64,000 nucleotides of DNA from Myxococcaceae bacterium. Its GTDB lineage: Bacteria; Myxococcota; Myxococcia; Myxococcales; Myxococcaceae. The number at the start of each line of letters is the position of its first letter. Position 1 is the first letter of the stretch. Both the position numbers and the translations under genes were made by a program. The notes beneath the pieces were generated by a model that saw nothing but the letters and a program-made list of their open reading frames with translations, searched no databases and had not been told where the DNA came from. Shown here in pieces: positions 5,037 through 64,000 of this stretch. The stretch lies in contig JAEUJQ010000035.1 of assembly GCA_016793095.1 (NCBI GenBank), forward strand, positions 186,001-250,000, written 5' to 3'.

Positions 5037-5139
5037 GCGTTCCCTCCTGACGCTGACAGGGGGACCGTAGCCGCCCGGGCCCGCGGGGGAAGCCGATTCT
5101 CTTGTCAGGAACCGCGGGGACCGCCAGACGACCGGGCGC

Positions 5140-5502
5140 ATGCGCGACGTGACGTGGTGGCGAACGACGTTGAAGCAGGCGCTGCGCGATGGCCTGCGCG
5201 CGAGAGACGCGAGCGCGGTGAGCTTGTGGCGCGAGACGCTCTCGGCGATCGAGCACGCCGAGGCAGTGGACGTGGCGCACGCGCCCCGCGCCGAGGACGG
5301 GCCCATCGCAGGCGCGGTGCGTGGCCTCGGCGCCGCGGAGGTCGCTCGCCGAACCCTCTCGCCCGGCGACATCGAGCAGGTGCTGCGCCGCGAGCTGGCC
5401 GAGCGACGTGGCGCGGCGGACGAGCTCGCTCGCCTCGGGAAGGCCGGCGAGGCTGCACGACTGCGCACCCAGGCGGCCCTGCTCGAGCGGCTCCTCGCCT
5501 GA
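5140..5502 (+). CDS. GatB/YqeY-like protein
   Basis: A 120-aa protein resembling the YqeY family, the helical domain also found at the C-terminus of the GatB subunit of Glu-tRNA(Gln) amidotransferase. The family pattern of an N-terminal helix with basic residues, a (D/E)-x-x-x-V/L-x-LW/R-x-x-x-S-A-I-E segment (AVSLWRETLSAIEHAE), then a Glu/Arg-rich helical C-terminal half is visible. It is shorter than the usual ~150 aa. Family members are thought to act near tRNA, but their role is unsettled. It is divergent from the HEAT-repeat gene, with ~100 nt between the starts. The frame is clean and the start ATG is unambiguous. Confidence 0.65.
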   Translation: MRDVTWWRTTLKQALRDGLRARDASAVSLWRETLSAIEHAEAVDVAHAPRAEDGPIAGAVRGLGAAEVARRTLSPGDIEQVLRRELAERRGAADELARLGKAGEAARLRTQAALLERLLA

Positions 5503-9928: not shown

Positions 9929-10068
9929 TTCGACAGCTCCTGCTTCCGCCGCCCTCCGGGCCAGGCGACGGTGTGGGAAAAGGTGATGCTCCGAAGGGCG
10001 GCGCTCAAAACAGAAGGCCGACCGCTTCGTCAAGTGCAGACTCGAAGCGACCGGCCCGTTTCTTCGCC

Positions 10069-48309: not shown

Positions 48310-48914
48310 GGCACGAAGGGCTGGTCGCCGTGCAGGTGCTCGCGCACGGCGTCGACCGACGGCACGAGCGTCAGCTTCACGCCGACCCGGCCACGCGCGA
48401 GCCGCTTCGGACGGACGCCGATCTCACTGAGCGCCTGCCCGCAGGGCGGCGGCGAGAGGCCGTAGCCGGGATCGAGGCTGTCGGGCGTCCACGTGAGCCA
48501 GGCGTCGGTGGGGCGGTCGAGGGCGAGGTCGAAGCGCAGGCGCTCCTCGCCGGTGAAGCCGCCGGTGGCGAGGCGCGGCGTGACGACGGCGCCGGACTCG
48601 AGCTCGAGCCGGGCGTTGAGGCCGAGGGGATCTGGAACATCGATGTCGAACTCGATGCAGCCCGGGCCGCAGGCAGGGCCCCACGCGGCGGGGCGGAGCT
48701 CGGACTGCGGCGCGACGAGGAAGGCCAGCGCGTACGACGCACGGAAGGGGTGGTGCTCGTACTCAGCCCACGCGCGGAGCACGCGGTGCGGAGCGCGCAG
48801 GCCCCAGGTGAGTGAGCCGAGGAGCGCGAGGAGGAGCCCGGCGGTGACGAGGCGCAGCCGCATGACGATGTGATGCGACGATGGCCCCGGTCGAGCGCCG
48901 GGCGCATCGGTCAT
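48306..48914 (-). CDS. Hypothetical membrane-anchored protein, paralogue of the next gene
   Basis: A 202-aa product from ATG 48914, which overlaps the stop of the RNA methyltransferase gene (ATGA). A shorter start at 48863 begins directly at the hydrophobic helix MRLRLVTAGLLLALLGSLTWG. The mature region carries Cys-containing beta segments (GPACGPGCIEFDIDVPDPLG) and the motif WTPDSLDPGYGLSPPPCGQ shared with its downstream neighbour. I do not recognise the family. Membership in an operon with rsmB-like and HD genes is visible from the spacing, but the functional link is unknown. Confidence 0.6.
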   Translation of the reverse strand: MTDAPGARPGPSSHHIVMRLRLVTAGLLLALLGSLTWGLRAPHRVLRAWAEYEHHPFRASYALAFLVAPQSELRPAAWGPACGPGCIEFDIDVPDPLGLNARLELESGAVVTPRLATGGFTGEERLRFDLALDRPTDAWLTWTPDSLDPGYGLSPPPCGQALSEIGVRPKRLARGRVGVKLTLVPSVDAVREHLHGDQPFVP

Positions 48915-50125
48915 CGGGTGGATGCGTGCTGGAGCACCACGCCGAAGAAGCCGTCGGTGCCGTGGCGGTGCGGGAAGGTGCGCAGGGCGCCGTGCGCGTC
49001 GAGGAGCCCGGTGGGCAGTGGTGGGCGCACGCGGTGGAAGTCGGGGTGCGCGGAGAGGAAGGCGGCGACGACGTCGTCGTTCTCGTCGGAGCGCAGCGTG
49101 CAGGTGGCGTAGACGAGCGTGCCGCCGGGGACCAGGTGGCGCGCGGCGCTGTCGAGCAGCTCGCGTTGAAGGGGCGGCCAGCGGGAGAAGGCGGCCGGGT
49201 CGAGGCGCCAGCGCAGGTCGGGGCCGCGGCGGAGCGCGCCGAGCTCGGAGCACGGCGCGTCGATGAGGACGTGGTGCACGCGGAGGTCGGCGGGGAGCGC
49301 GTGGTGGATTCGAACGGTCGCGCCGGCGCGGGTCGCGCGGGTGCGCAGGCGCTCGAGGCGCTCGTGATCGACGTCGGTGGCGTGGAGGGTGACGTCGGTG
49401 GAGCGGGCGGCGAGCGCGAGGCTCTTGCCTCCCGCGCCGGCGCAGAGATCGAGCACCGACTCGCCGGGCCGCGCGACGACGAGCTGGGCGAGCAGCTGGC
49501 TGCCTTCGTCCTGGAGCTCGAAGAGGCCGTCGCGCCAGGCGCGGGTGGCGGTGAGGTTGGCGGGGCGGGTGGTGACGTGGAGCGCGTCGGGGCTGAAGCG
49601 GCCGGGCTCGGCGTCGCGGTGCTCGGCGGCGAGGAGGGCGCGCAGCGCGTCGCGGGTGCAGCGGGCGCGGTTGACGCGGACGGTGACGGGCCCGGGCACG
49701 TTGAGGGCGTCGGCGAGGGCTTCTGCCTCGGGGCCCACTGCGGCGAGGAGCGCGTCGGCGAGCCAGTCGGGCACCGAGGTGCGGTCGCGCCAGTCGGTGA
49801 GGGGGCGCGCGGGCGGAACGTCGACGCCGAGGAGGCGGGGCGCGTCGGCGGACCCTCCGAGGTCGCGCGCGAGGCAGGCAAGGAGCGCGAGCGGCGGGAG
49901 GTCGCCGACGTGCGCGCGCAGGCGACGGCGCCAGAGGCCCACGCCGAAGAGGGATTCCGAGGTGACCTGGCGCTGGGCGGCGGTGGAGGCCGGGTTCGCG
50001 CGGAGGAGGCGGTCGAGGACGTCGGCGGCCGAGGCGCCCGAGAGGATGGCGTCGAGGGCGGGCGCGAGCGTGGGAGCGAGGCCGTCGAGGGCCCGCCAGG
50101 GGATGTCGCGCAGCCGGGCGATCAT
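48911..50125 (-). CDS. RsmB/NOP-type class I SAM-dependent RNA (cytosine-5) methyltransferase
   Basis: A 404-aa RNA methyltransferase. The SAM-binding motif VLDLCAGAGGKSLALA, the catalytic Cys in IDAPCSELGALRRGPDLRW, and a second Cys in GTLVYATCTLRSDEND match the RsmB/Nop2 group. This group methylates C5 of cytosine in rRNA or tRNA. The N-terminal ~150 residues are helical, like the NusB-like extension of RsmB. The ATG at 50125 overlaps the HD gene stop (ATGA). The exact rRNA target cannot be read from sequence. Confidence 0.9.
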   Translation of the reverse strand: MIARLRDIPWRALDGLAPTLAPALDAILSGASAADVLDRLLRANPASTAAQRQVTSESLFGVGLWRRRLRAHVGDLPPLALLACLARDLGGSADAPRLLGVDVPPARPLTDWRDRTSVPDWLADALLAAVGPEAEALADALNVPGPVTVRVNRARCTRDALRALLAAEHRDAEPGRFSPDALHVTTRPANLTATRAWRDGLFELQDEGSQLLAQLVVARPGESVLDLCAGAGGKSLALAARSTDVTLHATDVDHERLERLRTRATRAGATVRIHHALPADLRVHHVLIDAPCSELGALRRGPDLRWRLDPAAFSRWPPLQRELLDSAARHLVPGGTLVYATCTLRSDENDDVVAAFLSAHPDFHRVRPPLPTGLLDAHGALRTFPHRHGTDGFFGVVLQHASTR

Positions 50126-50715
50126 TCGCGGCCGAGGGCGCGGCGCAGGTTGGCGCGGGCGGGCGCGTCGAGGCGCTCGTGGAAGTGGGCGGAGTGGAAG
50201 AGGCGCGGGGCCTCGAGGAGCTTCGAGAGGAAGCGCCGGCGACCGAGGCGGTAGAGGAGCGCGTTGGTGACGGGGCGGAACTCGTCGGCGATGGCGGCGT
50301 CGTAGGCGTCGAAGGTGGCGGGGTCGGCGCCGAGGATGGCCATGTCGGCGTCGAGGAAGTGGGCGGCGTCGGCGTCGGGGGGCGTGGCGGTGCCGTGCTT
50401 CGCGGTGAGGTCGATGAGGGTGCGCACGTACGCGACGTCGAGGCCAGCGCGCGGGAGGAAGGTGTCGATGGCCTGCGCGGCGAGCTCGGCCGACTTCGCC
50501 TCGTTGTCCTTGCGGCCGGGGACGTAGACGGCGTCGTGGAAGAGCGCCGCGAGGTAGACCTCGGCCGGGCGGGTCCACGAGGGGACTGTCGCCAGGTGGC
50601 GGAGGACTTCCTGCACGTGCGCGAAGGAGTGGTACGCGCGCGGGGGCGTGGCGTAGGCCGAGAGGAGCGCCCGCATGAGGCCTTCAGGGACGTCAATGGG
50701 GGCGAAGGGGGCCAT
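50122..50715 (-). CDS. HD-domain metal-dependent phosphohydrolase-like protein
   Basis: A 197-aa HD-superfamily protein similar to the COG4339 group. Metal ligands occur as AYHSFAHV (H), AALFHDAVY (HD pair) and a later Asp in LDADMAI. The helix VPGRKDNEAKSAELAAQA follows with NE/SA, matching family members. The function may be nucleotide or nucleotide-analogue hydrolysis. It is the first gene of a coupled operon with the RNA methyltransferase, divergent from the tRNA-Asn gene (55 nt apart). Confidence 0.85.
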   Translation of the reverse strand: MAPFAPIDVPEGLMRALLSAYATPPRAYHSFAHVQEVLRHLATVPSWTRPAEVYLAALFHDAVYVPGRKDNEAKSAELAAQAIDTFLPRAGLDVAYVRTLIDLTAKHGTATPPDADAAHFLDADMAILGADPATFDAYDAAIADEFRPVTNALLYRLGRRRFLSKLLEAPRLFHSAHFHERLDAPARANLRRALGRE

Positions 50716-50769
50716 ATTCGTCAGGGTTGACAGGGTGATGCGTCGAACGTAGAGACGCGCGCGTCGTAT

Positions 50770-50842
50770 TCCTCGATAGCTCAGTCGGTAGAGCGGCGGA
50801 CTGTTAATCCGTAGGTCCCTGGTTCGAGCCCAGGTCGAGGAG
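50770..50842 (+). tRNA. tRNA-Asn (anticodon GTT)
   Basis: A 73-nt cloverleaf. Acceptor stem TCCTCGA pairs with TCGAGGA, followed by discriminator G. The anticodon loop CTGTTAA carries GTT at 50803-50805 (position 34-36), and the T-arm is CTGGTTCGAGCCCAG with the invariant GGTTCGA. CCA is not encoded. Anticodon GTT reads AAC/AAT, giving Asn. It lies between the HD gene operon and the defence-like island. tRNA 3' ends are frequent integration targets. Confidence 0.97.
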
Positions 50843-51139
50843 CTGAATGGAGCCGGAGACCAACCCGGCCGACATCAAGAGTTAACAGCGGCCTCGGAGA
50901 GTGATCTCCGGGGCCGCTGCCGTTTCGGCCCACGTTCCCGAGGCTTTCCACCTGCCCAGCGCCTCTCGAGTGTCTGGACGGCTTTCGAGCAAAGAGCGCC
51001 GCGGGCCGGGCTTAGCGGTCCGCGAGGAGCATCGGGACGGCGTTCAGGCGCTCTCTCAGGGCCTGCGGGGAGAGAGAAACGCAGACCGTTTAACAGCCGA
51101 GCGGGACGGCACCGCGGACGTTTAACTGGCCAGTCCGGG
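50843..51139. other. Non-coding junction after tRNA-Asn
   Basis: A ~300-nt stretch with no convincing gene. It holds a strong hairpin (50887-50918) and three related TTTAAC/GTTAAC tracts (50881-50886, 51087-51092 and 51119-51124). A 74-codon open frame starting at 50901 shows no domain and no credible start signal. This is the left junction of the possible island beginning at 51140, where an attachment site would be expected. No direct copy of the tRNA 3' end is seen in the window. Confidence 0.55.
50887..50918 (+). terminator. Strong hairpin downstream of tRNA-Asn
   Basis: AGCGGCC pairs with GGCCGCT, and GGAGA with TCTCC around a GTGA loop, with a two-base internal mismatch. It is 45 nt after the tRNA end, and GCCGTTTC follows. 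This is the probable tRNA transcript terminator. Confidence 0.7.
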
Positions 51140-52000
51140 CTACTTCTTCGACAACGCCCAGATCAGGCCGACCGCGAGCAGGCCCCCAAGAAGCAGCCCA
51201 GTCCCGTCGTCAGTCGAACTCGGAACGACCACGCTGGCTTCAGGGTTCGCCGAGACAGCGGACGCCTGCTCAGCTACCTGCCGCATCGCAGGCCTCGCCT
51301 CGGGCTGAACGGCGCACATGGCCCCCACGAGCGCCACAAAGCCGCCTGGAAGCGAATGGCCACCCAGGGTCAACGTCGTCCGCTGGCCAGTCAGCAGTTC
51401 GACGGCCACGACTCCCAGCGAGTAGACGTCACACGCATGCGTGAAGGATGCCCCCTTCAACAATTCCGGCGCGCGGTAGCCGTCGGTTCCCCAAGCGGTC
51501 CGCGTCATCAGTCCGGCCGTCTCTGGCTCTCGAGCGACCCCGAAGTCACCTACCTTGATCACAGCACCGGCCTGCGACGGGTGTCGCGCTACGAGAATGT
51601 TGTCGGGCTTGATATCGCGGTGGAAACCGCCCTGGGCGTGCAATGCCGTCAGCCCCGCTGCAGCCTGCGAAATCGCCATGGCAACCTCCCGCCACGGACG
51701 ACGGTTCTGAACCCAGGATCGAAGTGACCCGAACTGACAGAACTCCATGGCGATGAACGGCGGCACGTGGTCGAGACGGGCGTCCAAGACCTCGACAACG
51801 TTGGGATGCGCATAGTCTTGGAGCATCCGAGCTTCACGCCGGAAGCGCTCCGTCTGCGCCATGTTCGTCAGGAACTTGAGCGCGACTTCCCGGCCCGTCG
51901 ATTGATCGATCGCCGCGTAAACCGCGCCGAAAGCCCCATTGCCGATCGGCTGTACCGGTGCGTAGCGACCAGAAATCAGCTGCCCAATCCCGAGGTTCAT
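51140..52000 (-). CDS. Membrane-anchored Ser/Thr protein kinase, last gene of the MADS-like operon
   Basis: A 286-aa eukaryote-like kinase with all key residues: Gly loop G20-NGAFG-25, K42 (VALKF), E56, H127-R-D129 with N134 (HRDIKPDN), D152-F-G, and APE 177-179. It should be active. The C-terminus has one hydrophobic helix (residues ~267-283, LGGLLAVGLIWAL) and ends in SKK, so the kinase faces the cytoplasm from the inner membrane. ATG 52000 overlaps the stop of the ATPase gene as ATGA, so it is translated with it. The region is visibly less GC-rich than the flanking chromosome (37 of 60 bases G/C in 51901-51960). It is not part of the eight mad genes that I remember. Confidence 0.85.
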   Translation of the reverse strand: MNLGIGQLISGRYAPVQPIGNGAFGAVYAAIDQSTGREVALKFLTNMAQTERFRREARMLQDYAHPNVVEVLDARLDHVPPFIAMEFCQFGSLRSWVQNRRPWREVAMAISQAAAGLTALHAQGGFHRDIKPDNILVARHPSQAGAVIKVGDFGVAREPETAGLMTRTAWGTDGYRAPELLKGASFTHACDVYSLGVVAVELLTGQRTTLTLGGHSLPGGFVALVGAMCAVQPEARPAMRQVAEQASAVSANPEASVVVPSSTDDGTGLLLGGLLAVGLIWALSKK

Positions 52001-55000
52001 TTTTTCCCAGTCCCTGCGCCAACCGCCGTCTTGGTTGCGCCTCCATGGTGTGTGACGCGAGGGCGGCATCGAATCTTCACGGCGCCCTTCGTGAATGCGT
52101 CGTCGGTCGCCTTGCTAGACCAGATGAACGCTTCGCCCGGGCGCAGGTTCGACATCTTCTCGGGCGTGAGCGAGCCGAGCGCCGCGTTCGCCTTCTGAAT
52201 GTGCTTGAGCCAGGCGGGCGAGTTGAACTTGTGGAGGATGACCTGGCTGGAGAGCTCAATGAGCGAGATGGGCACCGAGGGCGGATCCTGGCTCGCGACC
52301 ATGATGCTCGTCCCCTTGTGGCGCATCTCGCGCACGACCTCGATAAGGCCGGCCACGAGGTCGGGGCTTTCGATGTACTTGTGGGCCTCGTCGAAGACGA
52401 CGAGCTTGTTGAACGAGTGCTCCGCGCCCTGCGCGTCGCGGTACTTGGCATCGGCGAAGAGTTGGAGGAGCACGACGAAGAGCCCCAGAGCTTCGTCCTT
52501 CTCGATGAACTCGTCGCGCAGGTCGACGATGATGAGACGGCCCGGGCGGATCTCGTCCTTCAGGCGAACCGAGTCGTCGATGTACTCGGCCGCTAGCTCA
52601 AGGCGCATCTTCGCCATGCCCTTGAGGTGATCGGCCAGCGATGAGGCCTCAATCCCTTGATTCAGCCCCTCGAGCGTGAGGTCGTCGCGCAGCGACTTCA
52701 TCACGCGATTGAGCTGGCGAATGTACGTAGCCTGGTTGCCCACCGCCCCCATGAGGAAGCGCCAGTGGCTGGTCTGTAGCTCGGCAGCACCGAACTTCAG
52801 CGGGCGCACCTCGATGTCCGGGTACTCTTGCTTGCGCTCGTCGAGCTTGTCCGCGGGCGCCAGAAGGAGGACGTCGGCGAGAGCGCGGGGCTCGGCGCCG
52901 AAGGTCTCCTTCAGCGCCTTCACCTGGGCGGCCTCGCTGTTCGGCGCGACCATCGACGTGAACTCCGGTCGGTAGTCCATCGTTGGGCTGTAGTGGAAGA
53001 TGACCGTCGCGAGCGGGTTCGGGAGGACGTTGATGTTCGGGATGGGCAGCGAGGCCATCTCCGCAATCGTGCCGAGCGTGTAGCTCTTGCCCCCGCCCTG
53101 GACGCCGAAGAGGCTGATGGTGTGCGTCTGGTTCAGGTCGATCGCGATGCGCCGGCCTGAGACGTCGCCGAGCAGCCCGTACTGGGGCGAGTCCCCGGTC
53201 ACGCCGAGCATGATGTCGTAGGGCACCGCGTGCGCGCTCTTCGCCTCCGGGCTCGGTGCGGGCGGTGGCACCTCCGCTGCCGGGGGCTCGGGAGGCCGCG
53301 CCACGGGCGCGACGTTGGCCACCGTGGCGGCCTTCGGCGGCGGCGCGACGGGCGGGGCCTCCGGCGCGGTGGGGCGCGCTACGGGCGTCACGACGGGCGT
53401 GGGCACGGCCTCCTGCGCGGCGACGGGCGTGTGCGGCGGGACGCTGGGCTGGCGGCCGCGCAGCTCCTCCCACGAGACCGAGCGATCGCGCGGAGAGCCA
53501 AGGAAGGCGGCCGAGTCGAGCGTCGGCACCGAGGGCGCGCGCTCGCGACGACGGCGAACCTCGCTGACACCGCGCGGGCGCGGTCCACCGCCACCGCCTG
53601 GTCCACCGCCCCCCGAGGAGCTGGCGCTGAGGCTCGCCGACGACTCGGTGCTGGGCGCGGCAGCGTCGACGAGCTGACGAATCAGGTCGACGCCGATGCG
53701 GTGGTACTCGATGCCGCTCTCGCTCTCGGGCGGCTCGGTTCCGGGCTTGGCGAAGTCGAAAATGAGAGCGCTGCGCGTGAACGCGAGCTGGTAGCCATCG
53801 TCGAGCGTATGAACAAAGTAGCGCGCCTCGTCGGCGGCCTCGCGGCTGATGGCTCCGTAGCGCTCGGCGCGCTCCAGGTAGAACTCGAGGAGCAGCGCAA
53901 GCTCGCGCGTCTTGAACGCGCGGTCCGGGCGGTCCTGGGGCGTACGCTTAGGATCGAAGTGGTGCGCGAGCACCTCCTCGCTCTGGCCGATCTGCTCGGC
54001 GATGCTCGACTTGAGCGCGTTGTAGGCAGCGAGGTCGCCGACGCCCGAGTAGCACTTCACCTCGACGAGGCGGCACGTGATGATGCGCCGGGTGGTGTCG
54101 AGATCGAAGAGCCCGAGGTCCGTGCGCTTGAAGCTGACCTCGTCGCCCAGCTCGTCGGCTCCCTGCTTCAGCACGCGGTACAGCTCGAGATGCGCGTCGA
54201 GCGGGACGACGATCTGGTTCTCGAAGACGCCCTGGTGTTCGAGGTAGAGGCGCGAGAGGGCCAGGCCCAAGGCTTCCGCCCGCTGCGTCGGCGACGAGAT
54301 GAGCTTCAGCGCGAGCCGGCCGGACAGCGACCGGAGCTGGTCGAGTAGCACCACGGCGTGGCGGCCCTCGGCCTGAAGCCCGTATTGCTCGAGGACCGGA
54401 CGCAGGAGCGCCTCGAGCTCAGCGACCGAACGGGACGTGATGACAAGCCGATGCCCCAACGTGCTCGCCATGTCCGGCGAGTGGTCGATGAGGTAATCCG
54501 GCCGCGTCGCGTGCCCGCCGTGGTCGAAAAACTCGATGCCGAGATTGCGGTCGAGCGTGAACACCCAGTCGCTCACCTCGTGAACCTGATGGAGAAGCGC
54601 ACGGTCGTCGGGACCGAGCGCCAGGCTCACGACGGGACGGAGGTCGATACCGCTCTGGCCAGTGGCGATGGTCGCTGTCGCGCTCGACATCGAGGCGGCG
54701 AGTTTGCCGAGCAGGTCGGAGAGTTCCTCTGCGTCTTCGATGGGCTGGGCCACGCCGTGGCGCGGGAGGCGGCGCCACGCAACGGTCAGCTCGTCCTCGT
54801 GGTACTCGGTCGAGAACTCCTGCACGAGGCCGTGAACGAACGCCGTCGCGTGGCGAGGATCGGACTTGCGCGCGCCAACTTCCTCGGCCGGGAAGACGTC
54901 GAAGAGCAGCGACAGGTGGGCCGCGTGGGTATCCGGGCTGATGCGGAAGTCCTTGGTCGAACGCACCGCGAAGCGCAGCTTCGGGTGAAGGTGCGTCTCG

Positions 55001-57570
55001 GCCGGAATGGAGAACGCGTCCGCTTCACGCGTGTTCGTGCCTCCATCAGGCGTGAGCAATGCGGCGATCTCGTCGCCGACCCCGGGCGCGTCGGGATCGG
55101 GCACGAAGAGCCGGATGTCGTAGCGAAGGTCGGCGAAGGCCGACTCCTTCTGCAGCTCGAGTAGCATGTCTCCGAGCACGCCAGCGCGGCCCGGATTGAA
55201 CGCGTTAATGGTCAGCGTGCGGACGTACGGGTGCTGCACGAGGTAGCGCCGCACGCGAGACGCGAGGTACTTGCCATCGATTAGCGCACCGCCGATGGCA
55301 GGCTCGGGCAGGCCCAGCGCACTGCAGACCTCGCCGACGAGGCCGCGAGGGTCCTCCTCGTTCGACGGCGCGAAGAGCGTCCAGAACGGGTTGATGCTGT
55401 CGACGGCGGTCAGCACGTGGCCCGCCTCCGTCGGCAGAACCGGCGGGAAGCTCGTTGGCGACAGCAGCTTCAGCAGCGCCTCGCGCGTCGGGACCACATA
55501 CTCCTGCGGCGCGCTCCTCGCGGCCGCAACCCACTGGGCGCCGAGCTTCGCCCACGTGGCAAACCACAACGCCCGCAGCGGGTGCGTGGGCGCTACGAGG
55601 ACGGCGTCGCGGCGACGACCACGGTGATCGACGATGGCGAGAAGCACGGAGTCGAGCGCGAGGATCTTGCGCAGGTCTGCGAAAGCCCGCTGCGAGTCGC
55701 TCTTCGCCGTCGCTTCCGCTCGCTGGGCTAGGTCCGCCAGCAGCGCGAGATAAGCACCCGCGTAATCGCTCGCGAGATCGGTGTTCGCCCCAGCGTCGAC
55801 GCCCTGCGTGACCAACTCCGAGGTGCCGCTCCGTACCGCCGCGAAGTAGCGGGTACGCGCTTCAAGGAAACGATCGCCAGCGGCGCCCTGCGGCCAGCCG
55901 TTGACCTCACCGGTGCTCGTCCCCGGCACGCCGTGATTCACCGGGATGCGCCAGCTAATCGGACCGTCGGGCGCAGCGAGGATCTTCTGCTCGATGTTCT
56001 TGAGTGCGCGAGAGACCGGCACATGCACCGCGCCCTCGCGTCCAAGCTTCACCTCCAGCATGTCGGCACCGGAGACATGCCCCTTGGTCTTCTCTGCCCA
56101 CGCGGCGTGCCCGAAAACGACGCTCGTCGGATCGCGGTCGTCGAGAATGGCCTTGAACTGCGCACGGAAGAGGGCGTGCAACGCGCTCGGCTCGCGCTGC
56201 ACGGCACGCTGCGCGGGCTCGATTTCCACCTCGGTGTCAGGCAGGACATAAAACAGATCGCTCTCGTTTGGCCGGGGCGCTGTCTCGTCCGCGTCTGCGC
56301 TCCACGCGACGGCATCGCCGTTCGCGTCGACGAGCGGAATGAGATCCCCGCTCTCGGTCTGCGCGAGGAGCCGAATGAAGTGCCAGCCCTCTTCCCAGTC
56401 GATCTTGCCGAGCGCCGAGAACGAGATTGTCGCCTTGTCAGTCGCCGTCTTCCACACGGCCTTGCTGCGGGCGAGACCGATGGGACCATGTTCCTTGGAG
56501 ATGACCTGCGCGACGAACTTCGCGAGGCCCTGCACCTTGCTCGGGTGCGGCTCCGTGCGGAACGTGACGTTGAACTTCTTGAGGTTGCTGACCGGCAGAA
56601 TGCACTGCCCGATGAGCTGCGCGAGCGGCTCCTTGGTCTCGTCGCCGGCGACCTTCGGTAGGTCCGTCTGCACCTCGCCGACAAAGATGGCGTCAGGTTG
56701 GACGCCGCCGTCTTCGAACTCCCACTTGTTGAAGGCGAGCTGCCAGAGCGCCTTGTCGACGACGATGCGGCGCGCCCACTGGCGCGGGTCGTCTGTGCCC
56801 GCCTCGGCGAGGAAGTTGCCAAGTAGGTTCTTGAAGGCGCGCTTGGAGAGCCCCAGTTCACCCACGCGACCGCGCTCCGATCGCGGCGACCAGGTCAGCT
56901 TCTCGACGCTCTCGCGGTTGCGCACGAGGCGGGTCGGGGCCTTCTCTGGCTGCACCAGCCACTCGAAGTCGGGCACCAACCCCACCTCGTAGAGCGACGC
57001 TCCGAGCGCCTCGCCGTCGTTGCCGTTCACCTTCGCCGTCAGGAGAAAGCGCACCGTCGAGAGCGCATCCGCGAAACGCCACGAACGCTCACCACCACGC
57101 TGCCGTCGGAGCGACTCATGGACGCCACCACGTAGCGTTGAAGGCAGCTCGCCGAGTAGCTTCTCGATGAGCGCCTCGTAAAGGCCGGTGACCGAGACCT
57201 CCTCGAACGTCGCCACGCCGAAAGAGTCCTCGGCCGAAGCGCGTACGTCGCTGGGAACAAACACGAGGAGCGGCGGGCGCTGGGTGCCGTCGGCGTGGGG
57301 ATTGCGCAGCTCGACGAGTTTCGTGCTCGACACCGCGAGCTCGGCGGGGATGCTCAGCTTACCGTCGGTGAGAACCACGACCGTCGTGTTGGGCAGCTCG
57401 GCGCGAAGCCGCGCGCAGAGCCGCACCATCAGCTCGGCGTCGAGGTCGCTCACGCGCATGCAGTGACCGGCCACGCGTGTGCGGAGCTGCTCGACGAGCA
57501 ACGGCACGGCGACGTTCTCCAGCTCGTTGGTGAGATGCGTCGTGGACAGCTCCTGGAACCCAGCGCTCAC
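51997..57570 (-). CDS. MAD8-like ATP-binding protein (HerA/DUF87-type ATPase fusion)
   Basis: An 1857-aa protein starting at GTG 57570, preceded by AGGAGGAACGCC. The C-terminal ~400 residues form a HerA/FtsK-like ATPase: Walker A GVQGGGKSYTLG near 1490, Walker B LVVFDEAHKYI near 1727, and arginine-rich GTSIMVASQDPPSV. The region before (~1310-1450) is a Gly/Pro/Ala linker. Around 1155-1170 lies a possible PD-(D/E)xK nuclease element (FDLDTTRRIITCRLVEVKCY). The N-terminal ~1100 residues are unrecognised. Gene order with the neighbours and the architecture match MAD8 of the methylation-associated defence system as I remember it. No search was run. Its stop overlaps the kinase ATG. Confidence 0.82.
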   Translation of the reverse strand: MSAGFQELSTTHLTNELENVAVPLLVEQLRTRVAGHCMRVSDLDAELMVRLCARLRAELPNTTVVVLTDGKLSIPAELAVSSTKLVELRNPHADGTQRPPLLVFVPSDVRASAEDSFGVATFEEVSVTGLYEALIEKLLGELPSTLRGGVHESLRRQRGGERSWRFADALSTVRFLLTAKVNGNDGEALGASLYEVGLVPDFEWLVQPEKAPTRLVRNRESVEKLTWSPRSERGRVGELGLSKRAFKNLLGNFLAEAGTDDPRQWARRIVVDKALWQLAFNKWEFEDGGVQPDAIFVGEVQTDLPKVAGDETKEPLAQLIGQCILPVSNLKKFNVTFRTEPHPSKVQGLAKFVAQVISKEHGPIGLARSKAVWKTATDKATISFSALGKIDWEEGWHFIRLLAQTESGDLIPLVDANGDAVAWSADADETAPRPNESDLFYVLPDTEVEIEPAQRAVQREPSALHALFRAQFKAILDDRDPTSVVFGHAAWAEKTKGHVSGADMLEVKLGREGAVHVPVSRALKNIEQKILAAPDGPISWRIPVNHGVPGTSTGEVNGWPQGAAGDRFLEARTRYFAAVRSGTSELVTQGVDAGANTDLASDYAGAYLALLADLAQRAEATAKSDSQRAFADLRKILALDSVLLAIVDHRGRRRDAVLVAPTHPLRALWFATWAKLGAQWVAAARSAPQEYVVPTREALLKLLSPTSFPPVLPTEAGHVLTAVDSINPFWTLFAPSNEEDPRGLVGEVCSALGLPEPAIGGALIDGKYLASRVRRYLVQHPYVRTLTINAFNPGRAGVLGDMLLELQKESAFADLRYDIRLFVPDPDAPGVGDEIAALLTPDGGTNTREADAFSIPAETHLHPKLRFAVRSTKDFRISPDTHAAHLSLLFDVFPAEEVGARKSDPRHATAFVHGLVQEFSTEYHEDELTVAWRRLPRHGVAQPIEDAEELSDLLGKLAASMSSATATIATGQSGIDLRPVVSLALGPDDRALLHQVHEVSDWVFTLDRNLGIEFFDHGGHATRPDYLIDHSPDMASTLGHRLVITSRSVAELEALLRPVLEQYGLQAEGRHAVVLLDQLRSLSGRLALKLISSPTQRAEALGLALSRLYLEHQGVFENQIVVPLDAHLELYRVLKQGADELGDEVSFKRTDLGLFDLDTTRRIITCRLVEVKCYSGVGDLAAYNALKSSIAEQIGQSEEVLAHHFDPKRTPQDRPDRAFKTRELALLLEFYLERAERYGAISREAADEARYFVHTLDDGYQLAFTRSALIFDFAKPGTEPPESESGIEYHRIGVDLIRQLVDAAAPSTESSASLSASSSGGGGPGGGGGPRPRGVSEVRRRRERAPSVPTLDSAAFLGSPRDRSVSWEELRGRQPSVPPHTPVAAQEAVPTPVVTPVARPTAPEAPPVAPPPKAATVANVAPVARPPEPPAAEVPPPAPSPEAKSAHAVPYDIMLGVTGDSPQYGLLGDVSGRRIAIDLNQTHTISLFGVQGGGKSYTLGTIAEMASLPIPNINVLPNPLATVIFHYSPTMDYRPEFTSMVAPNSEAAQVKALKETFGAEPRALADVLLLAPADKLDERKQEYPDIEVRPLKFGAAELQTSHWRFLMGAVGNQATYIRQLNRVMKSLRDDLTLEGLNQGIEASSLADHLKGMAKMRLELAAEYIDDSVRLKDEIRPGRLIIVDLRDEFIEKDEALGLFVVLLQLFADAKYRDAQGAEHSFNKLVVFDEAHKYIESPDLVAGLIEVVREMRHKGTSIMVASQDPPSVPISLIELSSQVILHKFNSPAWLKHIQKANAALGSLTPEKMSNLRPGEAFIWSSKATDDAFTKGAVKIRCRPRVTHHGGATKTAVGAGTGKK

Positions 57571-59252
57571 GGCGTTCCTCCTGTGGCCGTGTCGCCCTCG
57601 GCGATGCGGAATCTCGGCGTGATGGTCTGCGTGACGTAGGCGTCGGAGAGATCGCGGTAGAAGCCGACCTCGCGAAGCCGCCCGGTGAACGCGCGGACGT
57701 TGTCGCGTAGCGCACGACGGTCCTCGATACTGGTCGTCGCGAAGCCATCACCGCGCGGCAACTGGTCGATGAAGATGCCGTAGCGCTCACGCAAGAACAC
57801 GAGCAGCTCGTCAACGCGCATCTCGCCCGTGTGAAAGCCGCCGTCCGTACCCTGCTTCAGCACAGCGATCTGGAGCAGCACCTCGAGCAGCCGGCTGTCG
57901 AGGACGAAGCGGCGAGGCGCCTCCTTCGTTCGGCCCTGCGCGATGAGCGCGCCGGCGCGGTTCTTCAAGAGGAGTGAGTCGAGGCACTGCGTGACGTACT
58001 TGCGGTGGAACGGACCACGCAGCGCGACGATCATCTCGATGTATGCGTCGAACTCCGAGAGGCCCATCTCGGTGACGGCCTTCACCTCGGGGTCGAGCTC
58101 GGCGTCCTTCGCGCCCGACGTCTCTTCCACGAGGCCCGACACGCGCTGGCCGAAGAACTTCTCGCGCTCGGCCTTCAGCGGCGCGTCGAGGAGCTGCAGC
58201 ACCTCTCCCACCGAGAATTCGCCGCTGGTCGGCTTCGTGAGCTTGCCCCGACGAACGAGATCTGTGGCGAACTCGTCGAGCTTCTTGGTCGCGAAGTACG
58301 CTCGCAAGAAGCCCGGGATGCGCCGGTAGTGCGTGTCGGCGCTGCGTTCAGCGAGCGTAGCCATCGGAGTACCGGGCTGGCCTGCGACATCGACCAGCAG
58401 GCCCACGCGGTACGGGCAGTCGCCGAACGGGTTCTCCAGGCTCTTGGGGTTCATCGGGCACGCGCCCGTCGCGCACGTTGGATCAGCACCCTTCCTGCGA
58501 ACCAGCGCTGGCAGGAGCTTTAAGAGGCGCAAGTGATAGAGCCCGAGGTGGAAGGCGATGAGCACCTTCAGGTACTCGACCATCACCGAGCGCGGGATGA
58601 AGCGCTGGTAGAACAGCAGGCGCTGGATGTCCTCGGCGAGGAGATCGGCGGCCCCTACGCAGAGGGGCGAAAACGAATCGCGCCCCGACTTCGTGTCCGG
58701 CGCATCTCCCTTCACCTCGTCAAGGAGTCGAAGCAGCGCCTGGGTCTCGACGTCGATCACCGCTCCCGCGTTGGCCTTGCCCGTGACCTTGTCGTGGCCC
58801 TGGAAGAAGAAGTGGTGCAGGTGCTCGAGTGCCTTCTGCCCGGCGCCTTTCCGCGCCATGTAGAGCATCTCGTACAGGTGCTGCGCAGCGCCGTAGTCGC
58901 GCGAGTGCTTCGGGTTGCGGAAGCGGTACGTGAACCCGTGGAGCGGGCGCGGCGCTGCCAGGGCCTCGTTCGCCTTACCTCGGTTCACGAGGTCGAGAAG
59001 ATGCGTCTCGACCCAGCGGCGGACGACGTCGGGGTTGTCCTGGAACTTCGTGAACCACTCGGGGTGCTCGAAGGTAAACTCGACGAAGGCGTCGACGCTG
59101 AGTTCGAAGTTGCGTGTCAGGCGGCTCGGGTAGCCGTTGTGCGCGAGCCGCGCGAAGAACGCGGTGAGCACGCGGTCCATCTCGAGGTGCTTGAAGTCGA
59201 GGTAGCTGATCTTCGGGAGCCGGAACTCTCGATCGCGCTTGGACAGTGACAT
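57567..59252 (-). CDS. MAD7-like protein of the methylation-associated defence system
   Basis: A 561-aa soluble protein without a domain I can name. The ATG at 59252 overlaps the preceding stop by one base (TGATG), and the stop overlaps the GTG of the ATPase (GTGA), so it is translated as part of the operon. The N-terminal half is helical (FTFEHPEWFTKFQDNPDVV, HLYEMLYMARKGAGQKALEHLHHFFFQGHDK). A Cys cluster near residues 257-277 (CATGACPMNP, then GDCPYR) could bind zinc or an Fe-S centre. The C-terminal region has winged-helix-like character (ELLVFLRERYGIFIDQLP). Position between the kinase-like and ATPase genes is the basis for MAD7. Confidence 0.75.
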   Translation of the reverse strand: MSLSKRDREFRLPKISYLDFKHLEMDRVLTAFFARLAHNGYPSRLTRNFELSVDAFVEFTFEHPEWFTKFQDNPDVVRRWVETHLLDLVNRGKANEALAAPRPLHGFTYRFRNPKHSRDYGAAQHLYEMLYMARKGAGQKALEHLHHFFFQGHDKVTGKANAGAVIDVETQALLRLLDEVKGDAPDTKSGRDSFSPLCVGAADLLAEDIQRLLFYQRFIPRSVMVEYLKVLIAFHLGLYHLRLLKLLPALVRRKGADPTCATGACPMNPKSLENPFGDCPYRVGLLVDVAGQPGTPMATLAERSADTHYRRIPGFLRAYFATKKLDEFATDLVRRGKLTKPTSGEFSVGEVLQLLDAPLKAEREKFFGQRVSGLVEETSGAKDAELDPEVKAVTEMGLSEFDAYIEMIVALRGPFHRKYVTQCLDSLLLKNRAGALIAQGRTKEAPRRFVLDSRLLEVLLQIAVLKQGTDGGFHTGEMRVDELLVFLRERYGIFIDQLPRGDGFATTSIEDRRALRDNVRAFTGRLREVGFYRDLSDAYVTQTITPRFRIAEGDTATGGTP

Positions 59253-62200
59253 CAGACCGCTCCCTCTTGGGCGCGCGTCATCTCGAGGCGGCCATCGGCT
59301 TGGCGAGCGACGCGGTAGAAGTCATGGCCCGACGTGCTGAGCAGCACCTCCTGGTAGGGCGCAGAGCCGAGCAAGTTCTTGAAGACCGCGAGGCTCAGGT
59401 AGTAGCCCTGCTCCTCCTCGACGCTTGGGCGGTAGCCCTCGTTCAGGCGCCGGAGCATCTCGTAGACGTCGAGCGAGACGAGCAGCTCCGCATCGAGACC
59501 CGCAGAGTCGTGGTAGCGAAGTAAGAGCCCCGTGGGCATGTGTTCGACGAAGCGCGAGCGCGAGGCATGGTCGTTCAGCGACACAGAGAAGCGCTCGCGC
59601 GGGTAGAGCCGGTAGGAGCGCACGCTGCCACCTTCGACGCGGCGAACCTCCAACGCGAGGTTGTTACCGATGCGCTCAGGCCGCGTGAGCCCCTCGCCTC
59701 GGTTGATGGCGACGAGCAGCGGCTCGAGCAGCCCCTCGGCGCCCTTGTCGCCGCGCACCACCGCGAGCAGCTCGTCGGCGGTCTTGTACGGGAGCATCGA
59801 GCGCCAGCCCGCGTCACGCCGCTCGAAGAACGCGCGCCTGCGCGCCATCGCGATGAAGCGCCGGTGCGAATCGGCGCGATGCTCGCTTGCCTTGCCCGAG
59901 ACGTCACGCGGCAGCTCGTCGTAGAGGCTGCGGAGGATCTCGCGGTCGTAGGCGCCGCGCTGCTCGAATCGGAACAGCGTGCGGTCCTCGGTGGGCGAGA
60001 CGAAGTCGAGCGCGCGGTCGAGGCGCGGATCGTCGGCCGCCGCGACGTCGACCTCGGAGAGCAGCGTAAGCAGGCGATCGGCGTTGGGGGCGTCGCCGCC
60101 TTTCCAACTGTTGAAGTAGAAGCCCTGCACGATCTCGTTGCGCTGGCCGTTCTTGTACAGCGCGTGGATCTCATCGCAGTCGCGCGTGCCCACCAGCATG
60201 TACGCGAGCGCCGAGCGCAAATCGCGCAGCGTGATGTGCAGGCGCCCGCGCAGGTGCGTGATGGCGTAGAGGCTCTTCAGTCTTTCGACGACGTGCTTCC
60301 CCGCGGTCTCGTCCTGGATGGTCTGCGCGTTGTGGAACGCGTAGCAGCGGTCCTTCAGGTCGCAGCCATGGCAGGGCTCCCAGAACTTCTCATGCGTCAT
60401 GCGGTTCACGAGACGCTCGAGGATCGAGTTGTCGAAGCCTTGCGGGTCGACGACGACGCTGCGGAGATTCAAGTTCACGACGGCCACGCCATCGGTGGGC
60501 TCGCCCGTGCGGAGTCCCTCCTTCACCAGCGTGGCGAGCGCGGGAAAGTCTGCGCGGTTCGCCTCGAGGAAGTCGACGAGGCGCCCCTCGTTGATGGCGA
60601 TGAGTCGCGTCTCCTTCGTCGCTGCCCATCCCTTCGAGTCGTTGCCCTTGAAGGGGGCGAGGAAGGCGCGCAGCACATCGTCGTTCTTCTGGTCGCCCTC
60701 GTCCTGGCTGCCGTCGTAGTTCGAGAGGAACGTGCGCCCGCGCAGCTCAATGCGTGCGCCGTTCGGCAGCGAGTGGTCGACGGTGGCCTGTTCGTCGGCA
60801 GCCCTCCGTTCTAGCTTCTGCAGGAAGGCCGTCTTCCCATCGCCTGCATTGCCAGAAATGATGACGAGCGCGAATTCACCGGAGAGCACTGACGGCAGCA
60901 GCTCACGGTCGAGCGCGGTCTCGACATAGGTCTGCTCACTGATGACATCGAGGCCGCGCGTGCCCGCGTTGCTGTGCTTGCTCTGGCTGTAGACCGTGAG
61001 CAGATGGCGGACGTACGGGTTCGTGTTCGGAGGGATCGCTCCACCCGAGCCGCCGTTCCCGTTGCCATTGCGCTTGCCGTTTCCGCCGTCTCCCGGCACG
61101 CCCCACGCGATCGGCACCGGTGTGAGGGGCTGCGGCGCACGCCGCGCCGCCGGAATGCTGGTCAACGCGCTCCGCAGGTCGGCGGCGGATGCATAGCGGT
61201 CTGCACGCTTGGGCGCGATGGCCTTGAGCATCACGTCGACCAACTCGGGCGCGATGTCGGCGAGGCCCGACAGCTCGCGCGGATCGGCGGCGGGCTTGCC
61301 TGGCGGCGGGACCTGCGCGTTGTCCCACGGGTAGCGGCTCGTCATCGCCTCGTAGAGCGTGAGCCCAAGCGCGTAGAGATCACGATCGACGAGATCGCTT
61401 GCCGAAGGAACGTCCTCAAGCACGAGGTCGGGCGGCAGGTAGCGACGCGAGCCGCCGCCACGGCGCTCCTCGTCCTTCGCCGCGACCGATACGTTGAAGT
61501 CGATGATCTTCGTGCCGCGCCCAGTCCACAACAGGTTTCGAGGCTTGATGTCGCAGTGGTAGACGCCGTGCTCGTGCAGGTGCACGAGGCCTGTCGCGAC
61601 GTGCCGCCCGAGCTCGAGCGCGTCTTCGCGGGTCAGCGCGTTGCTCTCGATCATCTCGCCGACGTCAAAGCCCTCGATGAACTCGAAGACGATGAAGGGA
61701 GGACCGCCGGGGATGAGATCGGCGTCGATCACCTTCACCACGTTCTGGTGGTCGGGGATCTGAAGGAGCGTCTTGTACTCCTTCTTGAGGCGGTCGACCG
61801 TAGACACGCGGTCGCGCAACACCAGCTTCACAGCGCGCGAAACGTCGCCGAGCGTGTCGATGACCTTGTACGCGACCGCGAACGAGCCCGGCTTGCCGAG
61901 CCGCTTCTCGATGACGTACTTCGGCGTGAGCTGGGTGTTCGCGAGCAGGTTTGAGTAATCGAGCTGAGGCGCGGCGGGCTCGGCTGACGACGCCGATGGA
62001 GCCGCGCCGACTGCAGGCGCAGAGGCGGCGCTGGGGTCGAGGAGGATCTTCAGCTCGGTGAGTGCCCACGCCGCCGAGGGCCGATCGCCTGGCTCGAAGG
62101 TGCAGAGCTTCTGCAGCCAGGCGTCGAAGCCCGTGGGCAGCTCGGGGCGCGCAGAGCTGGGCTTCACCGCGAAGACGGCCTTCTGCTCGAACAGCTCGGT

Positions 62201-63421
62201 CGGCGTCTTGAACGGCCGCTCACCCGTGAACAGCTCGTAGAGCACGAGGCCAACGCTGAAGAGATCCGAGGCAGGCGTCGCGGCGGCGGGCTCGCCGTGG
62301 ATCTCGGGCGCCATGTACTTGGGCTCGAGGTCGTCGACGATCTCCTGCGCGATGGTGCGGCTGTGGTCGGTGCCCGGGCGCGCGAAGTCGAATCCTGTCA
62401 GCCGCATGCGGCCGTCGCTGCCGACGAGGATGTTCGCGGGCGAGATGTTGCGGTGAACGACCTTGTGCTGCGCAAGGTGGACGAGCGCGCTCAGGAGGTC
62501 GCCAGCGACGGTATTCTTCTGGTCGAGCGTGAGCGCAAGGGTGGGCTTGGCGATGTGGACGCGCAGCGCCTGCCCGGCGACGTCCTCGGTGACCAGGAAG
62601 TACTTGTCCTCGGCCTCGCTCGGGAAGAAGTCGCGCACGCCGACAATGCCCGGGTGGCCCGGCGTGGTGCTGAGCGTGCGGAACGCCGTCGAGATGAGGA
62701 GCTTCTGCTTCTCGCGCTCGTCCGGCGGCCTGTACGGGTCGGCCTGGTAGGCGCGGATGAGCGCCGTCGACTTCGGCCCCGCAAAGGCGTTGTGCGCGCG
62801 GTACTCGGTGTAGCTGTCGGTGCCACCCAGCCGCTCGGAGACCACCCAGCTCCCGAAGCGCAGCGGACCCGAGCGCGGCCTCGCTACGCCCTGCAGCGCC
62901 TTCATGATGATGTTGTGGTGCGCGCCGATGTTCTTCGATTTGCCGGCAGGGATGCGCGCCGCGTTCTGGAAGAAGGCCGTTGCTTTCTTGAGCGTGGTGA
63001 CATTCGGGGCGTCGCGCCCGCCCGGATCGGCCAGCGTGGCGTCAGGGGCCGTGAGCACGACGGCGGCGTCGACGTAGATGTCGTCGAGGTCGCGGCGTCC
63101 GGGCTGGCTGCCGGTGATGATGCCCTTCACCGCCTTGGCGTGCCCGCGCAGCTTGGCGAGCGGCGAGCTGAAGGCTTGGCGCCCCTCCGGGTACCACTTG
63201 GAGCCGTAGACATCGATAAGGCCGCGTGTGCCCTTCACGTCGACGAGGAAGACGGCGTGCGGCGCGATGATCGCGACGTCGACCTCGAAAGTCTCGCCGT
63301 CGCGCACGATCTCGAAGTTGTGCAGGATGAGGTAGCTCGCCGGCAGATGATCCCGCAGGGTAGCGATGGCCTGGCGCTCGGCCTCGTTCACCGGCTCGCC
63401 GATGGGAATCACCGTGGCCAT
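59252..63421 (-). CDS. MAD6-like multidomain protein: NERD + two kinase folds + P-loop NTPase
   Basis: A 1389-aa protein. Domains in order: NERD nuclease-related (~15-110; FEVDVAIIAPHAVFLVDVKG gives the D...DxK motif); first kinase fold (~225-500) with HRN in place of HRD (HRNISPANILV) and no usual VAIK Lys, so probably a pseudokinase; linker; second kinase fold (~555-800) with HCDIKPRN (HCD near 622), DFN in place of DFG, and AVK lysine, so activity is possible; Gly/Asn linker; P-loop region (~830-1389) with Walker A GNAGDGKT near 860 and Cys motif CHGCDLKDRCYAFH near 1020. Its ATG at 63421 overlaps the upstream stop by one base. Architecture corresponds to the protein kinase MAD6. Confidence 0.85.
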   Translation of the reverse strand: MATVIPIGEPVNEAERQAIATLRDHLPASYLILHNFEIVRDGETFEVDVAIIAPHAVFLVDVKGTRGLIDVYGSKWYPEGRQAFSSPLAKLRGHAKAVKGIITGSQPGRRDLDDIYVDAAVVLTAPDATLADPGGRDAPNVTTLKKATAFFQNAARIPAGKSKNIGAHHNIIMKALQGVARPRSGPLRFGSWVVSERLGGTDSYTEYRAHNAFAGPKSTALIRAYQADPYRPPDEREKQKLLISTAFRTLSTTPGHPGIVGVRDFFPSEAEDKYFLVTEDVAGQALRVHIAKPTLALTLDQKNTVAGDLLSALVHLAQHKVVHRNISPANILVGSDGRMRLTGFDFARPGTDHSRTIAQEIVDDLEPKYMAPEIHGEPAAATPASDLFSVGLVLYELFTGERPFKTPTELFEQKAVFAVKPSSARPELPTGFDAWLQKLCTFEPGDRPSAAWALTELKILLDPSAASAPAVGAAPSASSAEPAAPQLDYSNLLANTQLTPKYVIEKRLGKPGSFAVAYKVIDTLGDVSRAVKLVLRDRVSTVDRLKKEYKTLLQIPDHQNVVKVIDADLIPGGPPFIVFEFIEGFDVGEMIESNALTREDALELGRHVATGLVHLHEHGVYHCDIKPRNLLWTGRGTKIIDFNVSVAAKDEERRGGGSRRYLPPDLVLEDVPSASDLVDRDLYALGLTLYEAMTSRYPWDNAQVPPPGKPAADPRELSGLADIAPELVDVMLKAIAPKRADRYASAADLRSALTSIPAARRAPQPLTPVPIAWGVPGDGGNGKRNGNGNGGSGGAIPPNTNPYVRHLLTVYSQSKHSNAGTRGLDVISEQTYVETALDRELLPSVLSGEFALVIISGNAGDGKTAFLQKLERRAADEQATVDHSLPNGARIELRGRTFLSNYDGSQDEGDQKNDDVLRAFLAPFKGNDSKGWAATKETRLIAINEGRLVDFLEANRADFPALATLVKEGLRTGEPTDGVAVVNLNLRSVVVDPQGFDNSILERLVNRMTHEKFWEPCHGCDLKDRCYAFHNAQTIQDETAGKHVVERLKSLYAITHLRGRLHITLRDLRSALAYMLVGTRDCDEIHALYKNGQRNEIVQGFYFNSWKGGDAPNADRLLTLLSEVDVAAADDPRLDRALDFVSPTEDRTLFRFEQRGAYDREILRSLYDELPRDVSGKASEHRADSHRRFIAMARRRAFFERRDAGWRSMLPYKTADELLAVVRGDKGAEGLLEPLLVAINRGEGLTRPERIGNNLALEVRRVEGGSVRSYRLYPRERFSVSLNDHASRSRFVEHMPTGLLLRYHDSAGLDAELLVSLDVYEMLRRLNEGYRPSVEEEQGYYLSLAVFKNLLGSAPYQEVLLSTSGHDFYRVARQADGRLEMTRAQEGAV

Positions 63422-64000
63422 CAGTTCGTGGCTCCCTTCTCTATGGCGTGCTCGACCTTCTTGGTCGCCGAGCGGACACTCGCGGACGCCTCGTCTTCGA
63501 GCTTCCACGATTCGAGAACGGGCTCGGCGATCCGCTTGCGAACTGCGCTCGACGGCCAAGGCAGGCGAAGTGCCCCAATGTGTGCCGGATCCAGCTGAGG
63601 GATCGAACTGCCGAAGGCGTTTCGCGTGATCGCTCGGTACCCGTGCGGCGACGACAGCACCACGGAGAGGTAGGCGGCAGTCTCCGCGTCTTCGGGAGCG
63701 ATGCGCATCAGATGGTTGGACACGACCGACTTATCAACAGCAGGCGTAGCCCTCACGAGTCGACCGATGAGTCCTTCGAGCTGGCCAGCGTCCTGAATGA
63801 GGAGCCAGTTCTCGCGGACGATGTAGTCCTCGATCTTCGGCGCACGGCGGCTGAGGTGACCGCGCGGCTCTGGGTCGTACTGGAATAGCTCGGTGCCCGA
63901 GAAGTACGGATAGCCGTAGCTCGGGTCATCGACGTGGATGCGTTTGAAGATCCCCGGCGTGAACACCCGCGCTACTTCGTCGAGCCGCTTTGTGTCGCCA
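63421..64000 (-). CDS. HsdS-like specificity subunit (MAD5-like), 5' end beyond window
   Basis: The last 192 codons of a gene that enters from the right edge. The frame is open across base 64000 (GDTKRLDEVARVFTPGIFKR), so the N-terminus is missing. The visible region resembles the C-terminal target recognition half of a type I restriction specificity subunit: YFSGTELFQYDPE, KIEDYIVRENWLLIQDAGQLEGLIGRLV, the AYLSVVLSSPHGYRAITRNAFGSSIPQLDPAHIGALRLPWP core, and a terminal helix (KRIAEPVLESWKLEDEASASVRSA) suited to a coiled coil. In MADS an S-like protein directs methylation by the methyltransferase MAD2. TGATG links it to the next gene. Confidence 0.8.
   Translation of the reverse strand, partial: GDTKRLDEVARVFTPGIFKRIHVDDPSYGYPYFSGTELFQYDPEPRGHLSRRAPKIEDYIVRENWLLIQDAGQLEGLIGRLVRATPAVDKSVVSNHLMRIAPEDAETAAYLSVVLSSPHGYRAITRNAFGSSIPQLDPAHIGALRLPWPSSAVRKRIAEPVLESWKLEDEASASVRSATKKVEHAIEKGATN

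Follow-up and report, generated by a model that had tools for sequence, protein, structure and literature searches.

Kinase-based defense against phages has precedents in the KKP system and in the Stk kinase of coliphage 933W, as described in the respective papers (PMC11341870 and PMC6356687). The methylation-associated defense system (MADS) comprises eight gene families, mad1 to mad8, all of which are represented beside the protein kinase gene analyzed here, although the kinase is not one of them. The gene, encoding protein P0001, lies in a 64,000-nucleotide stretch of a Myxococcaceae genome (hereafter, the window). A search of titles and the beginnings of abstracts, with most subscription papers lying outside its reach, recovered no paper describing a kinase next to mad8.

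The kinase gene and the adjoining MADS operon

The intact reading frame of P0001 is located on the minus strand (Table 1). The protein scores 157 bits with the Pfam Pkinase model (cut-off, 31.7) and contains the catalytic Lys (K42), the Asp of the HRD motif (H127-R128-D129), the downstream Asn, and the DFG motif (D152-F153-G154), and thus qualifies as a Hanks-type Ser/Thr kinase. In an alignment of six family members, K42, H127, R128, D129, N134, D152, and G154 are invariant, so that the intact kinase recognized in the original prediction is confirmed by the open reading frame, the profile match, and the alignment alike. The Pkinase alignment extends only to profile position 195 of 263, which marks the end of the C-lobe as divergent. 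In the hydropathy scan, 18-residue windows exceed 1.6 only at the C-terminus, with a peak of 1.96 at residue 266, and a C-terminal hydrophobic stretch is also present in the five relatives (six members in total). These profiles agree with the single C-terminal membrane helix proposed originally, and P0001 is accordingly classified as a tail-anchored protein, with membrane insertion predicted from hydropathy. The structure predicted from a four-member alignment (mean pLDDT of 69) consists of a bilobal kinase fold spanning residues 13-251, followed by a low-confidence linker and a separate final helix (residues 272-283, pLDDT below 50); the matches to this model retrieved by Foldseek from the PDB are protein kinases, including mycobacterial PknB.

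The ATG of the kinase gene (51998-52000) overlaps the stop codon of mad8 (51997-51999) in an ATGA arrangement, as had been reported, and this overlap (51997-52000) suggests that translation of the two genes is coupled. An alternative in-frame ATG upstream would yield a protein of 309 aa, but the shorter product is favored because the relatives begin at about the same position.

Table 1. Features of the window discussed in the text
Feature	Position	Strand	Description and basis
Conserved chromosomal flank gene	50122..50715	minus	197 aa; found in 7/7 genomes searched from the same genus (split in two in G002)
Flank with two GTTAAACG copies	51087..51126	minus	At the island border
3' cargo slot	51132..52018	minus	Bounded by the points where mad8 and the chromosomal flank cease to be homologous to G006; contains the kinase only
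P0001, predicted tail-anchored Ser/Thr kinase	51140..52000	minus	286 aa; open reading frame, Pfam Pkinase, hydropathy
mad8	51997..57570	minus	ATPase, 1857 aa; PADLOC model
mad7	57567..59252	minus	561 aa; PADLOC model
mad6	59252..63421	minus	NERD, pseudokinase, second kinase, and P-loop domains; ATG at 63421, frame open to 63559
mad5, 3' part	63421..64000	minus	HsdS-like; gene continues beyond the window end

The MADS neighborhood noted previously was fully borne out. The PADLOC models of mad6, mad7, and mad8 match the respective genes with E-values of 6.7e-130, 6.9e-162, and 1.3e-43, and the genes upstream of mad6 match the models of mad2 to mad5. A 71-aa helix-turn-helix protein encoded farther along (L003:4837-5052) is assigned to mad1 through two near-identical homologs that match the mad1 model and that were scanned in its stead. 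By these profile matches, the operon is a complete MADS with all eight families. P0001, in agreement with the original prediction, lacks a specific match to any of these families. Its best PADLOC match, to mad6, is confined to one kinase region, and higher mad6 scores are reached by two unrelated kinases of this genome, so this similarity does not identify P0001 as a MADS core protein.

MAD6 contains two kinase domains, and the earlier description of a degenerate kinase fold applies to the first of these, which has HRN in place of HRD and, in this clade, no Lys. It does not apply to the second domain, in which the Lys, HCD, Asn, and DFN (for DFG) are retained in 11/11 loci compared, with HCD replaced by the canonical HRD in two Bacteroidota loci. 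Given this conservation across all eleven loci, the second domain may be active.

The genes behind mad8 and the borders of the island

To establish what follows mad8, we compared 15 MADS loci whose mad8 gene is readable at its 3' end, namely, the window, L005-L009, L011-L013, four plasmids (L067, L068, L069, and L096), and two divergent loci (G081 and G104); L010, which ends before the end of mad8, and G193, G271, and G402, whose mad7 matches are weak, had been set aside before counting. Because the rough gene finder missed AT-richer genes, including the kinase, tblastn and profile searches are the main basis of the absences reported for the flanks. By these searches, the kinase is located 3' of mad8 in the window and in none of the other 14 loci, so that the absence next to mad8 in relatives, named originally as evidence against the proposal, was largely observed. 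In these 14 loci, tblastn with the kinase detected the kinase domains of MAD6 itself and, beyond these, a single clade member at the far end of the island in G006, a genome of the same genus, such that members of the clade are present in 2/15 of the MADS loci within the stretches read. Consistently, when the 11 genomes from which L005-L013, G081, and G104 derive were searched with profiles, the clade was identified only in G006, the genome of L006; among those without a clade member anywhere in the genome are the sources of L005, L012, and L013, which are myxobacterial and have strong mad7 matches.

The position behind mad8 is occupied by different genes in different genomes. In G006, it holds a CBASS cyclase gene (PADLOC Cyclase, 2.9e-123), which likewise overlaps mad8 as ATGA, and a Cap15 gene (L006:17223-18786), and in G195, a type II CBASS consisting of genes for a SAVED-PDDEXK effector, a cyclase, an E1-E2 protein, and a JAB protein (L070:7092-12170). 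Given its absence behind mad8 in the other loci and the presence of CBASS in the slot at two of them, the kinase, not being conserved in MADS loci, does not qualify as a ninth gene of the system, and phosphorylation of MAD6, MAD7, or MAD8, among the possibilities raised originally, is unlikely to be its fixed role. In two Bacteroidota plasmids, the start of a gene for a PP2C phosphatase coincides with the end of mad8 or falls inside it (L069:21118-21783, and L096 from 19022); the two phosphatases are 41% identical to each other and possibly represent a conserved MADS partner in such plasmids. The remaining loci have other genes, or no obvious coupled gene, behind mad8. Two side observations from these flanks are genes for Tn7-like transposition behind MADS in a Piscinibacter plasmid (L067:25217-30562) and, behind MADS in a Sandaracinus metagenome-assembled genome (L012:19807-20315), a peptide repeated in overlapping frames that by eye resembles a CRISPR array.

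The boundaries of the exchanged segment can be read from the DNA alignment of the window to G006, which shows 83% identity from 52019 through 63424 and 78% in the flank at 48367-51131, with the homology of the chromosomal flank ending within 10 bp of the kinase stop codon. The 3' slot between these blocks measures 887 bp in the window vs. 1557 bp in G006 (3612-5168), where it contains the cyclase and Cap15 genes. Thus, the content of the slot has been exchanged, and the kinase is probably cargo of the island. The 5' slot also differs in size, measuring about 0.1 kb in the contig of the window vs. 4.4 kb in G006, where four proteins are encoded (a Gly-zipper protein, a sigma-54 activator, a member of the P0001 kinase clade, and a 245-aa protein), with a serine recombinase gene beyond. 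The genes for the Gly-zipper protein and the RtcR-like sigma-54 activator are divergent from mad1-mad2 in both G006 (L072:4483-6851) and G195 (L071:5083-7451). In the same two genomes, the spacing between mad2 and mad5 leaves no room for mad3 and mad4 (L072:1-3998 and L071:1-4532, respectively), unlike in the genome of the window, where both genes are present, and mad3 and mad4 look optional by this comparison. At the chromosomal border, copies of GTTAAACG are present in varying number also in the flanks of relatives, upstream of the conserved flank gene (L089, L090, L092, and L093), and L093 has a copy of about 31 bp in tandem. Conceivable explanations of these repeats are an integration site and an operator, the link to integration being a guess.

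Distribution of the kinase clade

Members of the clade are rare. Among 195 genomes of the phylum, 5 encode a match at E ≤ 7.4e-100, with the next match at 2.9e-44, and of the 13 genomes that pass 1e-40, eight do so through weaker matches only. In the phylogenetic tree, six members form a clade with support of 100/99 that is separate from generic kinases and the second kinase domain of MAD6, the support applying to the clade as a whole and not to the branching inside it; L016, which has no frame with the selection motif, and L057, a near-duplicate of L019, were left out of the tree. The copy in G116 is broken by an in-frame stop (L062, around 9070-9969). Outside the phylum, 2/396 genomes of the phylum of an Acidobacteriota metagenome-assembled genome (G201) pass 1e-48, whereas a search of the phylum of G197 (398 genomes, E ≤ 1e-48), run without a positive control, found no member of the clade. 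The plasmid and phage collections yielded distant kinases only (632 and 52 records, respectively, all below 60% identity).

A strong mad7 match is present in 2/195 genomes of the phylum, that of the window (G000) and G006, with two more being divergent and one weak, and both strong-mad7 genomes carry the kinase in the MADS island. In G006, the gene shares a 26.7-kb contig with MADS but is placed at the opposite island end, where it follows the sigma-54 activator gene on the other strand. The two kinases share 48% identity, compared with 84-90% for mad6 to mad8 of the same pair, and, therefore, they were probably gained separately; descent of both from a single ancestral island is not supported, given this disparity and given that the two kinases do not group together. 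If 4 in 194 genomes are carriers, one or more of the four other myxobacterial MADS genomes would be expected to carry the clade with a probability of about 8%, a figure weakened by the shared genus of G006 and the genome of the window, and a location of the gene on the very 26.7-kb contig that holds MADS, in a genome of 9.5 Mb, would be far less probable. The link between the kinase and MADS thus looks nonrandom.

Other relatives point to phages. In a fragment of a viral contig (L097), a member of the clade is encoded between the terminase large subunit and the portal, as annotated with PHROGs, and its G+C content is 0.56 vs. 0.71 and 0.74 for the neighboring genes. The relative from G114, which is 79% identical to the L097 kinase and is its closest relative here, follows a 50-residue terminase remnant with 80% identity. 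Thus, a placement as an accessory gene (moron) of prophages is observed for the L097 relative and, as a remnant, for that of G114, but not for the gene in the window. The relatives in G090 and G830 have no recognized phage or known defense genes adjacent to them in the stretches read; a DUF6119 protein is encoded directly behind the G090 relative (L061:7385-8773).

Possible roles and comparison with known defense kinases

We consider that P0001 is a mobile, tail-anchored kinase of the virus-defense type, an exchangeable cargo of the MADS island rather than a MADS subunit, that most likely acts as a stand-alone antiviral (probability of roughly 0.57). Defense is the best bet because the clade is rare and mobile and recurs in MADS islands, because CBASS fills the slot in other genomes, and because relatives are located in prophages, and the gene is probably an add-on defense gene rather than a ninth component of MADS. 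The original suggestion of a defense-linked kinase of the Stk2 sort hence gains support from the G006 copy in a MADS island and from the prophage-packaging neighbors of relatives. Against the defense-cargo reading count the presence of the clade in only two of the 15 MADS loci, its genome-wide absence from the three other myxobacterial sources named above, the G090 and G830 relatives with no recognized phage or defense neighbors in the stretches read, and the abundance of kinases in this genome, with 151 Pkinase matches, which makes kinases common neighbors.

The same abundance of kinases would allow P0001 to be an ordinary chromosomal myxobacterial kinase located beside the island by chance. 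This explanation is disfavored, and we regard it as very unlikely, because the clade was not found in the five same-genus genomes that lack mad7 but possess the flank gene, because the chromosomal homology breaks off within 10 bp of the kinase stop codon, and because the clade is rare and partly prophage-borne. Alternatively, the kinase might be a lineage-specific regulator or effector of MADS that phosphorylates MAD6, MAD7, or MAD8. Such a role would fit the ATGA overlap, the recurrence of the clade in two MADS islands, and a possible importance of phosphorylation in this system, suggested by the kinase domains of MAD6 and the PP2C genes behind mad8 in the two Bacteroidota loci. It is nevertheless unlikely: no other locus surveyed has the kinase behind mad8, the G006 copy is remote from mad8, following another gene on the opposite strand at the other island end, and the identity between the two MADS-linked kinases (48%) does not exceed that between the kinases of G006 and G090 (53%), the latter being a genome in which no mad7 was found.

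The location of the G006 kinase directly behind the genes for the Gly-zipper-stretch protein and the sigma-54 activator (Sigma54_activat, 1.3e-50) would also be compatible with a signal relay controlling transcription, for example, through that activator, in which case the kinase in the window would be a leftover or would act on another regulator. However, tblastn detected no match to the Gly-zipper/sigma-54 pair in the window or in the continuation of the contig, and G195 has the pair without the kinase, so we deem this role improbable.

Under the preferred reading of P0001 as defense cargo, the kinase would have been gained from a small pool of genes that moves between prophages and defense islands and would have settled between mad8 and the island border, in the slot occupied by CBASS in other genomes. 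The protein is predicted to be a cytoplasmic Ser/Thr kinase held at the inner membrane by its C-terminal tail anchor, and, owing to the ATGA overlap, its translation might follow that of mad8, such that it would be made together with MADS. It would be quiet in healthy cells and switched on by an infection cue, with autophosphorylation on a conserved Thr of the activation loop being the obvious route, whereupon the active kinase would phosphorylate host or phage proteins and stop phage production, by analogy with 933W Stk, staphylococcal Stk2, and KKP. More broadly, MADS islands of this type might be two-slot platforms in which the edge genes, placed or translationally tied behind mad8, serve as interchangeable second-line abortive modules (CBASS, the membrane kinase, and perhaps PP2C-linked ones) that come into play once MADS has been overcome or blocked, with a dedicated clade of tail-anchored kinases moving between prophages and slots as a ready-made module; we consider this generalization conceivable but doubtful. 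If true, a methylation-based defense operon would carry interchangeable, possibly cotranslated second systems at a defined edge, and such loci would offer a direct test of layered defenses being swapped as cassettes.

Among the described kinase defenses, profile comparison does not place P0001 in a phage-kinase family. The PD-T4-6 profile matches P0001 with an E-value of 5.5e-49 (PDLC04053, 165 bits), but two ordinary kinases of the same genome used as controls (L001 and L002) score higher, at 259 and 244 bits, which argues against membership in PD-T4-6. Matches of P0001 to phage-kinase profiles are likewise unspecific, with both controls again scoring higher. As proposed for P0001, the prophage-borne KKP of Pseudomonas aeruginosa is a Ser/Thr kinase defense carried by mobile elements (PMC11341870). 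It consists of two kinases and a phosphatase antitoxin, whereas the slot in the window holds one kinase, predicted to be membrane-anchored, and no phosphatase, so that P0001 does not belong to KKP. The Stk kinase of 933W, described as a prophage-encoded kinase of abortive infection (PMC6356687), is similar in that a P0001 relative also resides in a prophage fragment. The P0001 relative differs in being located between the terminase and the portal. The stk gene of 933W, by contrast, is located close to the repressor. Stk2 of Staphylococcus, described as a single-gene kinase defense (PMC11341870), shares this format with the role proposed for P0001 but is host-encoded. Should the defense role of P0001 be correct, a previously undescribed clade of membrane-anchored kinases would join this short list of kinase-based phage defenses.
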